DNA from: Clostridiales bacterium CHKCI006 | GTDB taxonomy: Bacteria > Bacillota_I > Bacilli_A > Erysipelotrichales > Coprobacillaceae | Direction of reading: 5' to 3' | DNA length: 50,039 nt | Assembly: GCA_900018345.1 (NCBI GenBank) | Contig: FCNA01000109.1 | Span: forward strand, 1 to 50,039 | Shown here: positions 14,042 through 38,961 of the stretch, one piece after another | Layout of the letters: each line of letters opens with the position of its first letter | Position numbering within the stretch: position 1 is the stretch's first letter | The notes under the pieces: model-generated | Told to the model about the DNA's origin: nothing | The model's input: only the letters and a program-made list of their open reading frames with translations | Databases searched by the model: none | Position numbers and translations under genes: made by a program

Positions 14042-14063
14042 AAAACCACCCGTAGGTGGTTTT
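14042..14063 (-). terminator. Terminator of the LCP gene
   Basis: AAAACCACC and GGTGGTTTT (perfect 9-base arms, 4-base loop) overlap the stop codon of the minus-strand LCP gene. Only a short T stretch follows, so strength is uncertain. Confidence 0.6.
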
Positions 14064-16188
14064 AAACACTATAAACAGTCACGGTGATCCGCAGGGAAGC
14101 GGTCAGGCTTGGGTCTTCATTAGATGTGACCACTAATGTCGCACGGTAAGTGCCGGCCCGCTGCCAGTTGATCTCGTCATCTTCGATTGTGGCCGTATAT
14201 TGGGAACTGGCGATGCGTTTGCCAGTCAGGTCGGTGACATAATAAGGAAGGATGGCCAGCAGATCCCGATCGCTGTCACTGGTTCTGACACGAAGGTTAT
14301 CTGCGATGATCCGATAACCCACATCTGCTTGTGAACTGTTCTGGTCACCGGTGAAATGGAAGATCAGCGTCTTTGTCCCGCGCAGCATATTGTCTGCGGA
14401 GAGGACTTCACCGGCTTCTACGGAGCCAGATTCATAACGTGAATCGTCGTTCAGTTCGGTACCGTCAGTCGTGCGATATTCACAGGTAATGGCATAAGCA
14501 CTGCCAACCGTTGTTTCATTATTTGAGCACCAGCGTCTGACATCGGCGTAGGTATCACCTTCAAAATCGGGAACAGTCAGAGTCCGTCGGCTGCTGCTGG
14601 CATTATCATAAACGAGTTCGTCCAGATCGATGTCGGCCTTTTCATAAGGGACATTGGCATTGAAAGAAAATTTGCTGGTTGGTAGTGGATAAGGTTCCTC
14701 ACCGATGATCCGTTTGATTTCTAAGGTCGTGGCATTGATGGAAGATTCATTTGGTACAAAGTAGTAGATTTCCTGCCCGCCTGACCAGCTTTCGGTCTTA
14801 TAGAGATCGGTTCCTTCAAGTGTATGGGATTGAATATTCAGGGCAGACATATCTCCGTAGCGACTGTTAGAACCTAGATTTGTCAGCAAGGAGAAGAGAC
14901 TATACATATTCTGTGGTGACATATTGGTCTGGACATTATCCCCTACCACAGATAAGAGGCTGTCGACACTCGTGACGATCTTACCGGAAGCCAGCTTGCG
15001 CAGGATACCTTCGATTACGATCTGCTGGTTGATGCCGCGATCGATGTCTCCGCGCAGTAAAGTTTTACGATGCCGGGCTAAGGCTAAGGCTTCTTCACCA
15101 TTGAGGTGCTGGTTTTCACCTGCCTCCAAATGAATGGCATCGGCATTGTCGTGAGAATCCTGTTCCGTAAAGGTGATCGGTACATCGACATCAATACCAC
15201 CGATGGCATCGACCAGATCGACAACGGCATAGAAGTTTAATTTCACATAGTAGTCAATCTTGATATCAAAAGCATTTTCAATCGATTCAATCGTACAGTT
15301 GATCCCGCCGCTGCCTGAGTGGGTAATCTTATCACGCTGTCCCTGGCAGGTTACCGGAATATAAGTATCACGTGGAATCGAATTTAAAGAGAGCTTCATC
15401 GTTTGCGGGTTAAAGGTTGCCAGCATGATGACATCGGCATTGGCAGCTTCGTTTAAGTTCCCGTTGCGGATATCTACCCCATTGATCAACAGGGTAAATG
15501 GTTCGGTTGAGAGATTGGCTTTATCGTCGGAAGCGGTCGCGTGGACGATTCGTTGATAAGAAACGATGGAACGGATCTGATCAGTGACATCCGGGTAAAC
15601 TTGTTCGATCATTGAAATACCACCGGCATCAAGGGCAATGGCATCCACATCCCCATTTAACAGGGCATTATAAGCTTCTACATAATTCGCGTAAGTCGTT
15701 GTCACAAGATCACTTTCTGAAAAGCCGTCTTCCTGCAGACCGTCAGTAATCATCGTACTGGTGGATTCATTGCTTTCAGGCTGCAGTGCGATGGTTCTTC
15801 CTTTGAGATCTTCAGTTGTCTGAAGCTCGCTATCATTAAGCGTATAGACTCCGGCTGAGACAATATCGCCCGCCTGAGTTGAAATCGTGGACATGGTATG
15901 GACGGCCCGATAAAAAATGTAATCGCAATAAGTGATGCCTAGACCATAAAGCACACTGAGTACCATGAAGACATAGAGGACAACACGTTTATGTTTACGA
16001 TAGGCAAGCTGCATGGCCACTAAGAAGATGGCCAGTAAAACAAGAACGAGGGCAACTAGCTGGAAGCGGAAGCCGAGCAGTGGATAATAAATCAATAATC
16101 CTACCCCGACTAGACAGCTTAAGATGGGCAGGATATAAGCGCATATGTGACAGATCTGAAAGATCCGTTTTGATGTTTTTTTACTCAT
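14062..16188 (-). CDS. LytR-CpsA-Psr family protein with periplasmic-binding-like insert and C-terminal PASTA/Ig-like domains
   Basis: A 708-residue membrane protein. Three hydrophobic segments lie at about 12-90. An extracellular region (about 105-230, LKGRTIALQPESNEST and YVEAYNALLNGDVDAIALDAG) resembles type 3 solute-binding proteins. The LCP catalytic domain follows (about 245-400): SIPRDTYIPV, DKITHSG, LVDAIGGIDVDVP and the arginine-rich LARHRKTLLRGDIDRG block. LCP enzymes transfer undecaprenyl-linked glycopolymers to peptidoglycan. The C-terminus has a PASTA-like segment (VPDFEGDTYADVRRWC) and an Ig-like beta repeat ending TASLRITVTV. The ATG at 16188 follows AGGAGGTTTCCG; a longer in-frame start is rejected. 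It overlaps the yigZ-like gene by 8 bases. Confidence 0.88.
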   Translation of the reverse strand: MSKKTSKRIFQICHICAYILPILSCLVGVGLLIYYPLLGFRFQLVALVLVLLAIFLVAMQLAYRKHKRVVLYVFMVLSVLYGLGITYCDYIFYRAVHTMSTISTQAGDIVSAGVYTLNDSELQTTEDLKGRTIALQPESNESTSTMITDGLQEDGFSESDLVTTTYANYVEAYNALLNGDVDAIALDAGGISMIEQVYPDVTDQIRSIVSYQRIVHATASDDKANLSTEPFTLLINGVDIRNGNLNEAANADVIMLATFNPQTMKLSLNSIPRDTYIPVTCQGQRDKITHSGSGGINCTIESIENAFDIKIDYYVKLNFYAVVDLVDAIGGIDVDVPITFTEQDSHDNADAIHLEAGENQHLNGEEALALARHRKTLLRGDIDRGINQQIVIEGILRKLASGKIVTSVDSLLSVVGDNVQTNMSPQNMYSLFSLLTNLGSNSRYGDMSALNIQSHTLEGTDLYKTESWSGGQEIYYFVPNESSINATTLEIKRIIGEEPYPLPTSKFSFNANVPYEKADIDLDELVYDNASSSRRTLTVPDFEGDTYADVRRWCSNNETTVGSAYAITCEYRTTDGTELNDDSRYESGSVEAGEVLSADNMLRGTKTLIFHFTGDQNSSQADVGYRIIADNLRVRTSDSDRDLLAILPYYVTDLTGKRIASSQYTATIEDDEINWQRAGTYRATLVVTSNEDPSLTASLRITVTVYSV

Positions 16189-16798
16189 CGGAAACCTCCT
16201 GTTTTTTGATATAGGCATATCGGATTAATTCTTTTTCATACTGACCGCGGGTGAGGTCCGAAATGGCATCGAATAACTGAGGATCCGGCACATAACATTC
16301 ATAGGTGACTTGCATCTCAAAATGTTTTTGACAAACCGGAATATGCCTGGTTTTAAGCAGATGATCGATCTGCCCGATATAGGGATAGGCAAAAGAAAAA
16401 GCATAATAGGGTGTCTTCTCTTTGACAACGATCTCGCCCTGTTCAAGTGCCTGACTGGTTGCCTGTGTATAGGCACGTACAAGCCCGCCGGCGCCTAGCT
16501 TGATTCCGCCAAAATAGCGAATCACAATGGCCAGGACATTTTGAAGTTCATTTTTCTGAAGGACTCCGAGCATGGGCAGTCCGGCTGTTCCTGAAGGCTC
16601 ACCGTTATCATTGGCTTTTTCATGGGGACCGATGATATAGGCATAACAGTAGTGTGTCGCATCAGGGTAAACTTCCTGATAATGCTTCAGGAGCACGGGG
16701 ACCATGTCGACATCGTCAATAGGTTCTATGATTCCGATGAAACGGGACTTATTGATGATGATCTCATGGATCGTTGTCTTTTCAACAGATTTCAGCAT
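16181..16798 (-). CDS. YigZ/IMPACT family protein (UPF0029)
   Basis: A 205-residue cytoplasmic protein. The N-terminal IMPACT domain shows the family pattern NKSRFIGIIEPI, THYCYAYIIG, NDNGEPSGTAGLPML and VIRYFGGIKLGAGGLVRAYTQA. A ferredoxin-like C-terminal domain follows. Bacterial members are proposed to bind nucleic acids or the ribosome, but their role is not settled. TAGGAGGGCGAAAA precedes the ATG. Its 3' end overlaps the LCP gene, so the two form a two-gene operon transcribed away from degV. Confidence 0.93.
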   Translation of the reverse strand: MLKSVEKTTIHEIIINKSRFIGIIEPIDDVDMVPVLLKHYQEVYPDATHYCYAYIIGPHEKANDNGEPSGTAGLPMLGVLQKNELQNVLAIVIRYFGGIKLGAGGLVRAYTQATSQALEQGEIVVKEKTPYYAFSFAYPYIGQIDHLLKTRHIPVCQKHFEMQVTYECYVPDPQLFDAISDLTRGQYEKELIRYAYIKKQEVSDE

Positions 16799-31425: not shown

Positions 31426-31640
31426 GACAAACCAGAAAAATATTATGATTTCTCAGGAGAATCGACATATTTTGAGGAGGTTCAGGCGTATGATAAGAAT
31501 GAACTTCAGAGATGGAGAAATGCGTGAAAGGTGAACCTCCTGATGACAATGATCCTGAACACGCGGAATGGATACATACGGATGTTGGTAATGGTGGAAC
31601 ATAACAGAAGTACCTGGCAGGCATCCATTCCGTGAAATGA
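31426..31640 (+). other. Intergenic stretch with two perfect inverted repeats and coding-like remnants
   Basis: About 235 bases lie between the exonuclease gene and the DUF1146 start. Two perfect 10-base inverted repeats occur: AGGAGGTTCA (31475-31484) with TGAACCTCCT (31532-31541), and CGGAATGGAT (31564-31573) with ATCCATTCCG (31623-31632). In the plus strand, broken frames read protein-like (YYDFSGESTYFEEVQAYDK, then GEPPDDNDPEHAEWIHTD in another frame). It may be a decayed small gene or a structured leader of the downstream operon. Neither is certain. Confidence 0.4.
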
Positions 31641-31660
31641 CAAAGGAGGTCGAATACCCA

Positions 31661-31864
31661 ATGGTTTATACCTTATTGAAGTTCATTCTCTACATGATTA
31701 GCCTTGTATGCGTGATCTATGGCTTAAGCTGTATTCCTTTTGAAAAGATGATCAAAAAAAATCACGTCCGTCAGTTTTACGTTCTTTATATCATTGTGGT
31801 GTTGAGTTTAACTTATCTTGTCGCGCATTTCTTTCTTGATTTTATGACAATCAGATTCGGGTGA
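31661..31864 (+). CDS. DUF1146 family small membrane protein
   Basis: A 67-residue protein with two membrane helices (about 5-24 and 42-62) joined by a basic loop (FEKMIKKNHVRQF). It matches the small YwzB/DUF1146 type often found just after the atp operon in Bacillota. Function is unknown. The ATG at 31661 lies 10 bases after AAAGGAGGT. An in-frame ATG at 31637 lies upstream of that site and is rejected. spoIID begins one base after its stop codon. Confidence 0.8.
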   Translation: MVYTLLKFILYMISLVCVIYGLSCIPFEKMIKKNHVRQFYVLYIIVVLSLTYLVAHFFLDFMTIRFG

Positions 31865-31865
31865 G

Positions 31866-32780
31866 ATGGATTTGAAAAGAACGTTTAAAAAAAGCTTTGT
31901 TGTCCTTTTGCTTGCTGTCGTTGTCGCTTTCTCACTTGCTCATATGGTTCCCGATGATTCTGACAAGTCCGCTCCCCCTTTGCCAGAAGTGAATGATGTG
32001 GTGCAGGTGAGACAAGCTGACGGCAGTGTTCGTGAGGTCGCGTTGGAAGAATATGTCGTTGGTGTCGTGAGCGCCGAGATGCCGGTCAGTTTTAGTCAGG
32101 AAGCATTAAAGGCGCAGGCAGTAGCCAGCCGAACCTATGTCCTTTCGCGTGATCTGGTAGTCGATGATACGACCAGTTCTCAGGTATATGAAGATGAAGC
32201 GAAGCGCAGGGAGAAATGGAAAGAAGATTTTGAGGCCAATGAAGCGAAGATTGAAGCATGTGTGGAAGCAACAAAAGGCGAGGTGCTGACCTATCAGGGT
32301 CAATATATCTCGGCTTTATTTTTTTCCAGTTCAAATGGAAAGACCGAAAATAACGAAGATTACTTTAATACGGTCAGTGTGCCTTATTTACGTTCAGTGG
32401 ACTCAAGCTGGGACCTGGAAGTCTCCAGTCAGGTGTACCGGGAAAAAAGTTTTACCAAGGAAGAGTTAAATCAGATTTTTGAAACCGATGACTTTACCTT
32501 GACCATTTTAAGTTATAAGGAAAGCGGTCGGGTCGATCAGGTGGATGTTTCCGGCAAGACGTATACAGGTCGCGAGATCCGTGAAAAATTAGGCCTGGCC
32601 AGCAGTGACTTTGATATCGAACAGGAAGGCAATACGTATATTTTCCATACGGTAGGTTATGGACATGGCGTAGGGATGAGCCAGTATGGAGCCCAGGGAA
32701 TGGCCGAAGAAGGGTATGATTACCGCACGATCCTGACTTATTATTATCAGGGCGTTGAAATTGAAAAATTGCATTCATAG
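31866..32780 (+). CDS. spoIID: Stage II sporulation protein D (lytic transglycosylase)
   Basis: A 304-residue protein with an N-terminal membrane anchor (about 9-27) and an extracellular SpoIID domain. The motif VVGVVSAEMPVSFSQEALKAQAVASRTY contains the catalytic glutamate. The C-terminal block GYGHGVGMSQYGAQGMAEEGYDYRTIL is characteristic. SpoIID cuts peptidoglycan at the septum so that the mother cell can engulf the forespore, together with SpoIIM and SpoIIP. It is tightly linked to the small gene upstream and to the spoIIQ-like gene downstream. Other LytB/SpoIID-domain proteins exist outside sporulation, but the neighbour supports SpoIID. Confidence 0.88.
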   Translation: MDLKRTFKKSFVVLLLAVVVAFSLAHMVPDDSDKSAPPLPEVNDVVQVRQADGSVREVALEEYVVGVVSAEMPVSFSQEALKAQAVASRTYVLSRDLVVDDTTSSQVYEDEAKRREKWKEDFEANEAKIEACVEATKGEVLTYQGQYISALFFSSSNGKTENNEDYFNTVSVPYLRSVDSSWDLEVSSQVYREKSFTKEELNQIFETDDFTLTILSYKESGRVDQVDVSGKTYTGREIREKLGLASSDFDIEQEGNTYIFHTVGYGHGVGMSQYGAQGMAEEGYDYRTILTYYYQGVEIEKLHS

Positions 32781-32829: not shown

Positions 32830-33483
32830 ATGAAGCGCATCATCTATCAGTACAGGATGCCAATCTTATTTGGATTTAGTTTAGTCCTCTTTCTATCCGG
32901 TCTATCCATCATAGAGAACATTATTTCCAATGTCAATCAGGAGATGCAGGAGCCAACCCCTACGGTTGTCCAGGAAACGATCACGCATAGCGATGCGACG
33001 ACCGAAACCCAGGTCACAACAACCCCGGCCCCAGAGGTATTGGGCTATCCCTATGTAGAACCTATTGCCATCGTACGCCACTATTATGAAGTCGATGCCA
33101 GTGATGAAGTGAAGGCGCAGTCCATGGATTATTTCGAAGGCGTCTATCGACCAAGCTTAGGGATTGATTTCTCAAATGGAGAAGAGGCTTTTGAAGTGGT
33201 GGCCAGTATCAGTGGAACAGTTCAGGATGTGAAAGAAGATCCGGTGTTTGGTGGATGTCTATCCATTGTCGGAGAAAATGGCCTGGAAGTGACTTATCAA
33301 AGCTTAGCCGAGATTGCGGTAAGTGAAGGGGATACGGTGGCACAGTCCGATTATCTAGGCATGAGCGGAACGAATATTTATGAAGCAGATTTAAATAATC
33401 ATATTCATTTTGTGGTTGAAAAAAATGGTCAGACGGTCAATCCGGAAGATTATTTTGAGGTCGCTCTTTCTGAGATTTCCTAA
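32830..33483 (+). CDS. SpoIIQ-like LytM/M23-fold protein with degenerate active site
   Basis: 217 residues: one N-terminal membrane helix (about 12-30), a Thr/Pro-rich linker, and an M23 domain (about 95-210). The zinc motif normally reading HxGxD is here SLGIDF, so the first histidine is missing. HIHF near the C-terminus keeps the HxH pair. Loss of zinc ligands is known for Bacillus SpoIIQ, which binds SpoIIIAH across the engulfing membrane instead of cutting peptidoglycan. Position next to spoIID supports this role. GAGGTGATATATGA precedes the ATG. A strong terminator follows. Confidence 0.75.
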   Translation: MKRIIYQYRMPILFGFSLVLFLSGLSIIENIISNVNQEMQEPTPTVVQETITHSDATTETQVTTTPAPEVLGYPYVEPIAIVRHYYEVDASDEVKAQSMDYFEGVYRPSLGIDFSNGEEAFEVVASISGTVQDVKEDPVFGGCLSIVGENGLEVTYQSLAEIAVSEGDTVAQSDYLGMSGTNIYEADLNNHIHFVVEKNGQTVNPEDYFEVALSEIS

Positions 33484-33599: not shown

Positions 33600-33620
33600 A
33601 TGACAAATGGGGGTGCACCT

Positions 33621-35453
33621 ATGTCAATGCAGATTTTTTGGTCATTTTTGGTGACCTTGGGCCTTAGTGCCTGCTTTGTGCCTCTAGTCAATAAAGCAGG
33701 TCGACATTTAGGTATTATTGCGGAACAGAACAAACGAACCATTCATAAAGGCAAAATTGCACGTATCGGTGGCATGGCGATTTATTTGAGTTTTCTCATC
33801 GGAGCAGCGATCTTTCTGAAAGCGGATCGTCAGATCAACGCCATCCTCATTGGCAGTTTTCTTATCTTTACCGTCGGGTTTTTAGACGATATTTTTGATC
33901 TTTCACCTAAGAAAAAGCTGCTTGTTGAACTCGTAGCTGCTTTGGTTATTATTTTATGTGGAGATATTTGGATCAAAGGCGTATCCATTCCTTTTTTGCC
34001 GTCTTTTTCCTTTGAATACATCTCCATGTTTGTCACGATCGCCTGGATCGTCGGGATCACCAATGCCATCAATTTGATTGATGGACTGGATGGGTTATGT
34101 GCCGGGGTGTCAACGATCGTATTGATTGCGATTGCAATGACAAGTCTTGTCTTTTCCAGAACGGATATTGCCGCCATCAGTGTCTTGCTGGCAGGGGCGA
34201 TTTGCGGATTTTTATGTTATAACTTTCATCCGGCCTCTATTTTTATGGGGGACTGCGGTGCTTTATTTATCGGGTTTATGATTTCAGTCATCTCTCTTTT
34301 AGGTTTCGGCTATAAAAGCTCAGCTTTCTTTACCTTGGGTGCACCGATCGTCATGTTGGCAGTACCGATCATGGATACATTTTTGGCGATCATTCGGCGT
34401 CGTTTGCGCGGACAAAAGTTCAGTGATGCGGACCGTGAGCATTTGCATCACACCTTGATGTTTAAATTAGATCTAGGTCAGACACGCAGTGTCATTATTC
34501 TTTATGTTGCCACAACGCTTTTTGCCTTGAGCGCGTATGTTTATGTCTTTGATAAGAAATTAGGCTTACTGATCTTTTTAGGCTTGATCCTGATCTTTGA
34601 ATTGTTTATTGAATATACGGGTATGGTCAATACCCATTATAAACCGATTTTGGCAACACTGAATTTATTTCTTAAAAATCCCAATTTACCGTCTTTCTCG
34701 GCGCAGCAGCGCAAGGTGGAAATTCGGGCAGCATTGAAAAAAGATCCGGAAAGTTTTAAAGATGCCAATCTGGAAATAGAAAAGGAGAAACTTAAAATGA
34801 AAAAACGCAAGCAGAAAAATCTGATTGTTGCTTTGGCTCTGATTGCAGTCGCTGTCATTGGAGGAATCGCTGTCTTTTTCGCTACCCAGCGTCAGTCACA
34901 AAAAGCTCCGATTGCCCTCGAGGAAGATACGGTGAACTATGTGGAAGGCAATCATCCAACGGCTTTGATGGATGAAATATATGATCAGCTTTTAGCGGCC
35001 AATGAAAGTGGCGATAAGACGCAGGAGAGGGAATTAGTAGCTGCCTATTTTGCGGCAGACTTTTTGACCTGGTCCAATAAAACAGACCGTGAAGATATCG
35101 GCGGTCTCTATCTGGTTTATCCGGACGTTCGGACAGAATTTGCCAGCTATGCTTTAAATCTCTATTATGTGAATATGAATGAGCATGCCTTAACCTATGG
35201 GCAGGAAGGCCTTCCTGAAGTCGAAAGCTATGCAATCATCAGCGATGAAACTTCTGATTTTATTTACGAAGCGAAGAATTTAGACAGCACTTATGATATT
35301 ACGGTACAAGTGACATATAAGTCAAAAGAAGGCGGCATGCCAACGGAAGATCTGAAGCAGGAAGCAGTCATCACGGTCTTAGAAGATGGCGAGAAGTTCT
35401 ATGTCGTTGGTGTGGATTATACGAATATTAATGCGAAGACAGATACGAACTAA
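33621..35453 (+). CDS. TagO/WecA-type undecaprenyl-phosphate GlcNAc-1-phosphate transferase with fused C-terminal anchored domain
   Basis: 610 residues. The first about 350 form a multi-helix GT4-like transferase that starts wall glycopolymer synthesis by loading GlcNAc-1-P on the lipid carrier. The motifs are VGFLDDIFDL, NAINLIDGLDGL, NFHPASIFMGDCGALF and DREHLHH. It matches TagO/TarO and not MraY. A charged linker then leads to another membrane helix (about 398-418) and an extracellular domain of about 190 residues not normal in the family. A ribosome site and ATG at 34797 sit at that junction in frame. The ATG at 33621 follows GGGGGTGCACCT. Confidence 0.9.
   Translation: MSMQIFWSFLVTLGLSACFVPLVNKAGRHLGIIAEQNKRTIHKGKIARIGGMAIYLSFLIGAAIFLKADRQINAILIGSFLIFTVGFLDDIFDLSPKKKLLVELVAALVIILCGDIWIKGVSIPFLPSFSFEYISMFVTIAWIVGITNAINLIDGLDGLCAGVSTIVLIAIAMTSLVFSRTDIAAISVLLAGAICGFLCYNFHPASIFMGDCGALFIGFMISVISLLGFGYKSSAFFTLGAPIVMLAVPIMDTFLAIIRRRLRGQKFSDADREHLHHTLMFKLDLGQTRSVIILYVATTLFALSAYVYVFDKKLGLLIFLGLILIFELFIEYTGMVNTHYKPILATLNLFLKNPNLPSFSAQQRKVEIRAALKKDPESFKDANLEIEKEKLKMKKRKQKNLIVALALIAVAVIGGIAVFFATQRQSQKAPIALEEDTVNYVEGNHPTALMDEIYDQLLAANESGDKTQERELVAAYFAADFLTWSNKTDREDIGGLYLVYPDVRTEFASYALNLYYVNMNEHALTYGQEGLPEVESYAIISDETSDFIYEAKNLDSTYDITVQVTYKSKEGGMPTEDLKQEAVITVLEDGEKFYVVGVDYTNINAKTDTN
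34782..35453 (+). other. Possible internal start giving a separate 218-residue anchored protein
   Basis: Within the TagO-type frame, AAAGGAGAA (34782-34790) lies 9 bases before an in-frame ATG at 34797. Translation from there would begin MKKRKQKNLIVALALIAV, a typical membrane anchor, followed by an extracellular domain of about 190 residues. No stop codon separates it from the transferase. Either the two were once separate genes, or both long and short products are made. The expression of the short form is inference. Confidence 0.5.
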
Positions 35454-35540: not shown

Positions 35541-35759
35541 ATGTGGGACATTTTAATGGTTATTGTATGTGTGGCCTTAATTATATTATCCTTACTGCAG
35601 AGTGGAAAATCCGAAGGATTAGTCAGTGCTTTAACTGGGCAAAACTCTTCCTTATTTAAACAGACAAAAGAGCGTGGCCCTGAATTAGTCCTTTCACGGA
35701 TTACGCTTGGGTTTGCAATCGCCTTTTTCATTATTGCAGTGATCATTCGTATGGGATAA
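35541..35759 (+). CDS. secG: Preprotein translocase subunit SecG
   Basis: A 72-residue protein with two membrane helices (about 3-20 and 49-69). The conserved middle segment LLQSGKSEGLVSALTG contains the family QsgKs.Gl...g pattern. SecG assists SecYEG-dependent protein export. The ATG at 35541 lies 9 bases after AAAGGAGG. secG before rnr, smpB and ssrA is a classic Bacillota order. Confidence 0.93.
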   Translation: MWDILMVIVCVALIILSLLQSGKSEGLVSALTGQNSSLFKQTKERGPELVLSRITLGFAIAFFIIAVIIRMG

Positions 35760-38606: not shown

Positions 38607-38961
38607 GGGGGCGTCCTGGATTCGACAGGGATTGGTCTGACTTTAGCGGCAGTCGGAGGTACACGTTAAGTACACCCAAAAAATAACTGGAAACAGAACA
38701 AATTACGCTTTTGCCTAATTAAGTCGACATAGACTTTGGCAAACGTTAGCTAGCCTAGCTCCCATCTAGGTTATCCTAACGTCATAACGATGGGATAAGC
38801 ACCTGATATGTCTGGAATCAGGTGACGAAAACCTGACAGACTCGCTTTGTGAAAGAGGGCTTACTGATCGTAGCAAAGTTAAATTCATTCAGAAAGCTAA
38901 ACTGTAGATGCTTTAGGGGGATGATCTTTGGACGCGGGTTCGATTCCCGCCGCCTCCACCA
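38607..38961 (+). ncRNA. ssrA: Transfer-messenger RNA
   Basis: A 355-base one-piece tmRNA that rescues stalled ribosomes. The 5' end GGGGGCG pairs with CGCCTCC before an encoded ACCA at the 3' end. GGATTCGACAGGGATTGG after the 5' arm and GGGTTCGATTCCCGCCGCC near the 3' end form the conserved tRNA-like domain. The resume segment ATAACT then GGA starts the tag frame at 38689, giving AGNRTNYAFA counting the charged alanine, with TAA at 38716-38718. Pseudoknot sequences follow. It lies next to smpB, as expected. Confidence 0.96.

Follow-up and report, generated by a model that had tools for sequence, protein, structure and literature searches.

The tagO locus and its continuous frame

The window analyzed here is the whole stretch of 50,039 nucleotides from Clostridiales bacterium CHKCI006. 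In it, a gene for a TagO-type transferase runs on in frame into a second, membrane-anchored domain, which we refer to as the C-terminal domain (CTD). The relevant features are as follows.

14062..16218, minus strand: LCP (LytR-CpsA-Psr) ligase (PF03816, E = 4e-39), whose homologues adjoin the free-standing CTD in other families
31637..31864, plus strand: DUF1146 protein, a landmark of the conserved atp-DUF1146-...-CTD neighborhood
31866..32780, plus strand: SpoIID, upstream neighbor
32830..33483, plus strand: SpoIIQ, immediate upstream neighbor
33621..35453, plus strand: TagO-CTD fusion gene, 610 amino acids (617 amino acids for the open frame from ATG 33600)
33621..34709, plus strand: TagO/WecA-type polyprenyl-phosphate sugar-1-phosphate transferase module (PF00953 and hydropathy), with 11 helices and intact catalytic motifs
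34710..34796, plus strand: charged linker, predicted to be cytosolic
34781..34787, plus strand: AAAGGAG, Shine-Dalgarno-like, 9 nt ahead of ATG 34797
34797..34799, plus strand: in-frame ATG at the start position of free-standing relatives, a relic or a live internal start
34821..34877, plus strand: 12th membrane helix, the anchor of the CTD (hydropathy; the helix is also in the model)
34962..35423, plus strand: CTD, a predicted extracellular NTF2/VirB8-like domain of about 155 residues (AlphaFold2 model)
35541..35759, plus strand: SecG, immediate downstream neighbor, followed by rnr and smpB homologues

A tmRNA gene (38607-38961, plus strand) lies directly 3' of smpB; its tag peptide is GNRTNYAFA.

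The fusion frame, which can be entered at 33600 or 33621, ends with the TAA at 35453. ATG 33621 is the likelier start because its anti-Shine-Dalgarno pairing is better (-9.7 kcal/mol versus -0.9 at ATG 33600) and because homologues align from it. The TagO part matches PF00953 at E = 5.2e-42 (144 bits versus a gathering score of 27), and its translation contains FLDDIFD, NAINLIDGLDGL, HLHHTL, and FMGDCG. It has the whole catalytic domain of the TagO/TarO/WecA enzymes, with their DDxxD, NxxNxxDGLDGL, and HxHH-type motifs; these enzymes are polyprenyl-phosphate GlcNAc-1-phosphate transferases that start glycopolymers linked to Und-PP. Unlike them, the fusion adds a linker, a helix, and a predicted extracellular domain. 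In the hydropathy profile, the 11 helices are followed by a K/R/E-rich linker, by a pronounced 12th helix (residues 401-419 of 610), and by about 190 predicted extracellular residues that reach to the end of the frame. The open reading frame, the PF00953 match, and the hydropathy profile thus bear out the preliminary description, which had seen one continuous frame made of a transferase, a charged linker, a new helix, and about 190 extracellular residues. Because 11 TagO helices and a cytosolic linker precede the 12th helix, the CTD is predicted to lie outside the cell; WecA has been described with 11 transmembrane domains (PMC12784632).

Single-sequence folding of the CTD was poor (pLDDT 42), so we used an alignment-based AlphaFold2 model instead (mean pLDDT 82). 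With this model, Foldseek gave no match below E = 0.001; its weak matches include lipid-binding toluene-tolerance proteins. In a second structural comparison, against the PDB, DotI, TraM, CagV, and VirB8 ranked first (Z 8.7 to 10.4). These top matches have an rmsd of about 3 to 5 Å over 106 to 130 residues at 5 to 14% identity, and the best of them, DotI, reaches Z = 10.4 across 128 residues. By sequence, no family in Pfam or NCBIfam recognizes the CTD above the cut-off, and it has no match in the PDB; one CTD from the sister family (f2, see below) touches TrsH/TraH at E = 0.0047. The model suggests an NTF2/VirB8-like fold, a likeness that is not proof of kinship or function. Like VirB8, DotI, and TraM/TcpC of conjugative plasmids, the CTD is predicted to combine a single N-terminal helix with an NTF2-like extracytoplasmic domain. 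Besides its low identity to these proteins, the CTD differs from them in keeping company with wall-polymer genes, and we recognized no type IV secretion or conjugation genes near it in the listed neighborhoods (whose genes were identified mainly by similarity to window proteins and by selected Pfam scans).

Distribution of the fusion and a single clade of fused domains

We sampled 43 genomes from the window's own family (f1; Coprobacillaceae at NCBI), whose named members include Thomasclavelia, Sharpea, Kandleria, Eggerthia, Longibaculum, and Massilimicrobiota. Named genomes were scanned with a narrowed CTD alignment, as the full-width alignment was too diverse. A continuous TagO-CTD frame of 561 to 633 codons is present in 38 of the 43 genomes, which represent about 17 genera. 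The five other genomes are G009, where a contig end interrupts the fusion; G004 and G044, which contain neither TagO nor the CTD; G049; and G001. In G049, the TagO and CTD frames are split (L114:951-2640, plus strand), although the genus has other members with the fusion. G001, which is 69% complete, has a TagO without the CTD (L042:4908-6005, minus strand) that stops just past the start of the linker and is followed by an open reading frame antisense to secG and by rnr; the CTD seems to have been lost.

Outside this family, the CTD is always a separate protein. This was the case in all 70 CTD-bearing genomes from the sister family (f2) and from five other families of Bacilli (f7, f10, f12, f13, and f18). 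The free-standing CTD is a membrane protein of 195 to 295 amino acids, with open frames of at most 295 codons. Elsewhere in the class, TagO orthologues without the fusion have open frames of 356 to 411 codons, in all but G059. We considered whether G059 holds a second TagO-CTD fusion, as its TagO frame has 686 codons (L109:1343-3388, minus strand), but we rejected it: its tail of about 340 residues is of low complexity and unlike the CTD. Neither a TagO fusion nor the CTD is described in the literature searched.

The fused CTDs group as a single clade in the CTD tree (support 100/97, 99% of bootstraps). The TagO tree has the window branching first within its family and G002 (contig L003) second (97/92). 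The CTD tree instead places the window and L003 as a pair, which is the first branch, rather than as successive branches. Judging from these sequences, the tagO and CTD genes merged once, in the ancestor of the family, because the fusion is found in nearly all of its genomes and the CTD is separate in the 70 genomes outside it. Comparing gene boundaries in relatives, as the preliminary description proposed, therefore points to a merger of two formerly separate genes, and the two earliest branches keep an in-frame ATG at the position where a separate CTD gene would begin.

The conserved gene orders are atp-DUF1146-murA-mbl-CTD in f7 and DUF1146-spoIID-spoIIQ-mbl-TagO-CTD in Thomasclavelia. In f18, murA and the CTD gene are adjacent in one locus, and the other locus reads DUF1146-murA-(one gene)-CTD. 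As a candidate relative of the CTD, we also considered YwmB, whose gene follows murAA in B. subtilis. The synteny agrees with an origin of the fusion from a tandem pair, in which a tagO gene placed ahead of the CTD gene would have lost its stop codon in the ancestor of the family. A comparison of coordinates found no tandem, unfused tagO-CTD intermediate in 38 genomes.

Neighbors of the free-standing domain and a possible role

In f2, the free-standing CTD gene adjoins an LCP gene in 10 of 15 loci, and in f13 all five genomes have this arrangement. The gaps between the two genes range from -83 to +18 nt (14 pairs measured), and Pfam identified an LCP domain in each of the five neighbors scanned. 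Some of the CTD-adjacent LCP proteins have C-terminal PASTA domains (L032:5190-7466, plus strand; L112:2015-4432, minus strand; and L149:2922-5657, minus strand). An LtaS-type sulfatase adjoins the CTD in seven of eight f12 loci, and the neighbor scanned in f10 is a TagB/F protein (PF04464). LCP ligases and LtaS-type sulfatases are the enzymes, and the CTD is only their gene neighbor: it has no LCP or sulfatase domain itself. In the window, the LCP protein has an N-terminal stretch that resembles substrate-binding proteins (Phosphonate-bd/NMT1 matches), and its gene overlaps a YvyE/UPF0029 gene (16181-16798, minus strand); the LCP-YvyE pair also occurs in L162.

The CTDs linked to LCP, sulfatase, or TagB/F genes are on a different branch of the midpoint-rooted tree from the fused CTDs. 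For the fused CTD, the closest free relatives are encoded next to murA, mbl, or other genes and have LCP only in the vicinity, so the link to wall polymers appears weaker for the fused type. Across 60 genomes, 48 have both TagO and the CTD, 3 have TagO only, none has the CTD only, and 9 have neither (Fisher's P = 1.5e-8, not corrected for phylogeny). Some f2 genomes (genus g168) have a CTD without a TagO orthologue. Because TagA is rare in these genomes (PF03808 was above the cut-off in the window's own genome and in 5 of 60 relatives), the polymer may not be classical wall teichoic acid. In B. subtilis, tagO and tagTUV are in one wall-teichoic-acid region (PMC7831098).

We think there is an even chance that the fusion permanently ties a TagO-type initiator to an extracytoplasmic domain with a docking or assembly role in the outer polymer machinery. 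The TagO module would transfer the first sugar-phosphate onto undecaprenyl phosphate at the inner face of the membrane. According to the predicted topology and fold, the chain would then pass through the cytosolic linker and the 12th helix into the outer VirB8/NTF2-like domain. There, the CTD might serve as a docking or scaffold factor for the outer wall-polymer machinery, its putative partner, because in most loci the free form adjoins enzymes for the synthesis or attachment of anionic wall polymers. The fusion would hold the initiator where the polymer is finished. To our knowledge, how initiation inside the membrane is coordinated with polymerization and attachment outside is not settled.

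The CTD could instead regulate TagO as a sensor or ligand-binding domain, with a pocket for undecaprenyl phosphate, the polymer, or another outer lipid. NTF2-like folds often have a pocket, the toluene-tolerance proteins among the weak Foldseek matches bind lipids, and being joined to the initiating enzyme would suit feedback control. However, the best matches in the second structural comparison are VirB8-type assembly proteins, and the free CTD adjoins LCP, LtaS-type, and TagB/F enzymes, not TagO. We consider a sensor rather unlikely.

The possible internal start site and what the fusion may mean

The preliminary description had noticed that AAAGGAG ends 9 nt before the in-frame ATG at 34797, and we see the same. 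This site is unusual and is stronger than chance usually gives: at -8.7 kcal/mol of anti-Shine-Dalgarno energy, it ranks third among the 343 internal in-frame ATGs in the window's genes. Linker length, counted to the helix, is 53 to 63 residues in the window and in L003, its nearest relative. Among the 38 distinct fusions, these two alone combine so long a linker with an ATG where the free-standing proteins (MKK...) start, and in L003 the ATG at the equivalent place has a weaker site (-5.0 kcal/mol). The other 36 fusions have linkers of 26 to 32 residues, most of them without any start codon there, and a comparison of linkers found a comparable internal ribosome site in none of the 36.

The restriction of the long linker and its ATG to the window and L003 fits a tandem tagO-CTD pair with a lost stop, and the old start of the CTD gene would still be readable in the earliest branch. 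Most likely, then, the site at 34781-34799 is a relic of the former start of the CTD gene that was kept in the earliest branch, and it may still work. Under another reading, which the preliminary description also offered, the locus yields both the fusion and a free CTD protein of 218 residues from ATG 34797. The strength of the site, the coincidence of this ATG with the start of free-standing relatives, and the equivalent ATG in L003 all speak for it. As a general feature it is not supported: the site is missing from the other 36 fusions, the outcome that the preliminary description had named as refuting, so function does not need it. In addition, Lys/Glu codons such as those around the site (GAA AAG GAG AAA) readily yield such motifs, and a relic explains the site equally well. 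In the window's own lineage, we view a second product as rather unlikely; our confidence in a docking role is not exclusive of it, as the two are compatible.

The CTD might also work in peptidoglycan synthesis or in the rod complex and have been joined to TagO by a genomic accident of no consequence. This would suit the closest free relatives, which occupy the syntenic position next to murA and mbl, and the lineage of G001, which kept TagO and lost the CTD. But the fusion, its linker shortened and tidy, has persisted over about 17 genera, and TagO and the CTD co-occur even where they are unlinked, so a neutral fusion also seems unlikely. Finally, a sequencing error, a missed stop, or a recent stop loss private to the window genome is rejected as the explanation: nothing favors it, there is no in-frame stop near 34790, where the preliminary description suspected a hidden one, and all 38 fused genomes of the family read through the joint.

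More broadly, we tentatively suggest that the CTD represents a so far undescribed family of single-span proteins that resemble VirB8 and may take part in wall-polymer assembly across several families of Bacilli. By its fusion to TagO in one of these families, it would hold the inner and outer steps of one polymer in a single complex. A natural, family-wide TagO-CTD fusion is thus a candidate coupling factor between the first step inside the membrane and the steps outside it, and an uncharacterized CTD family of many Bacilli gains its first functional lead.
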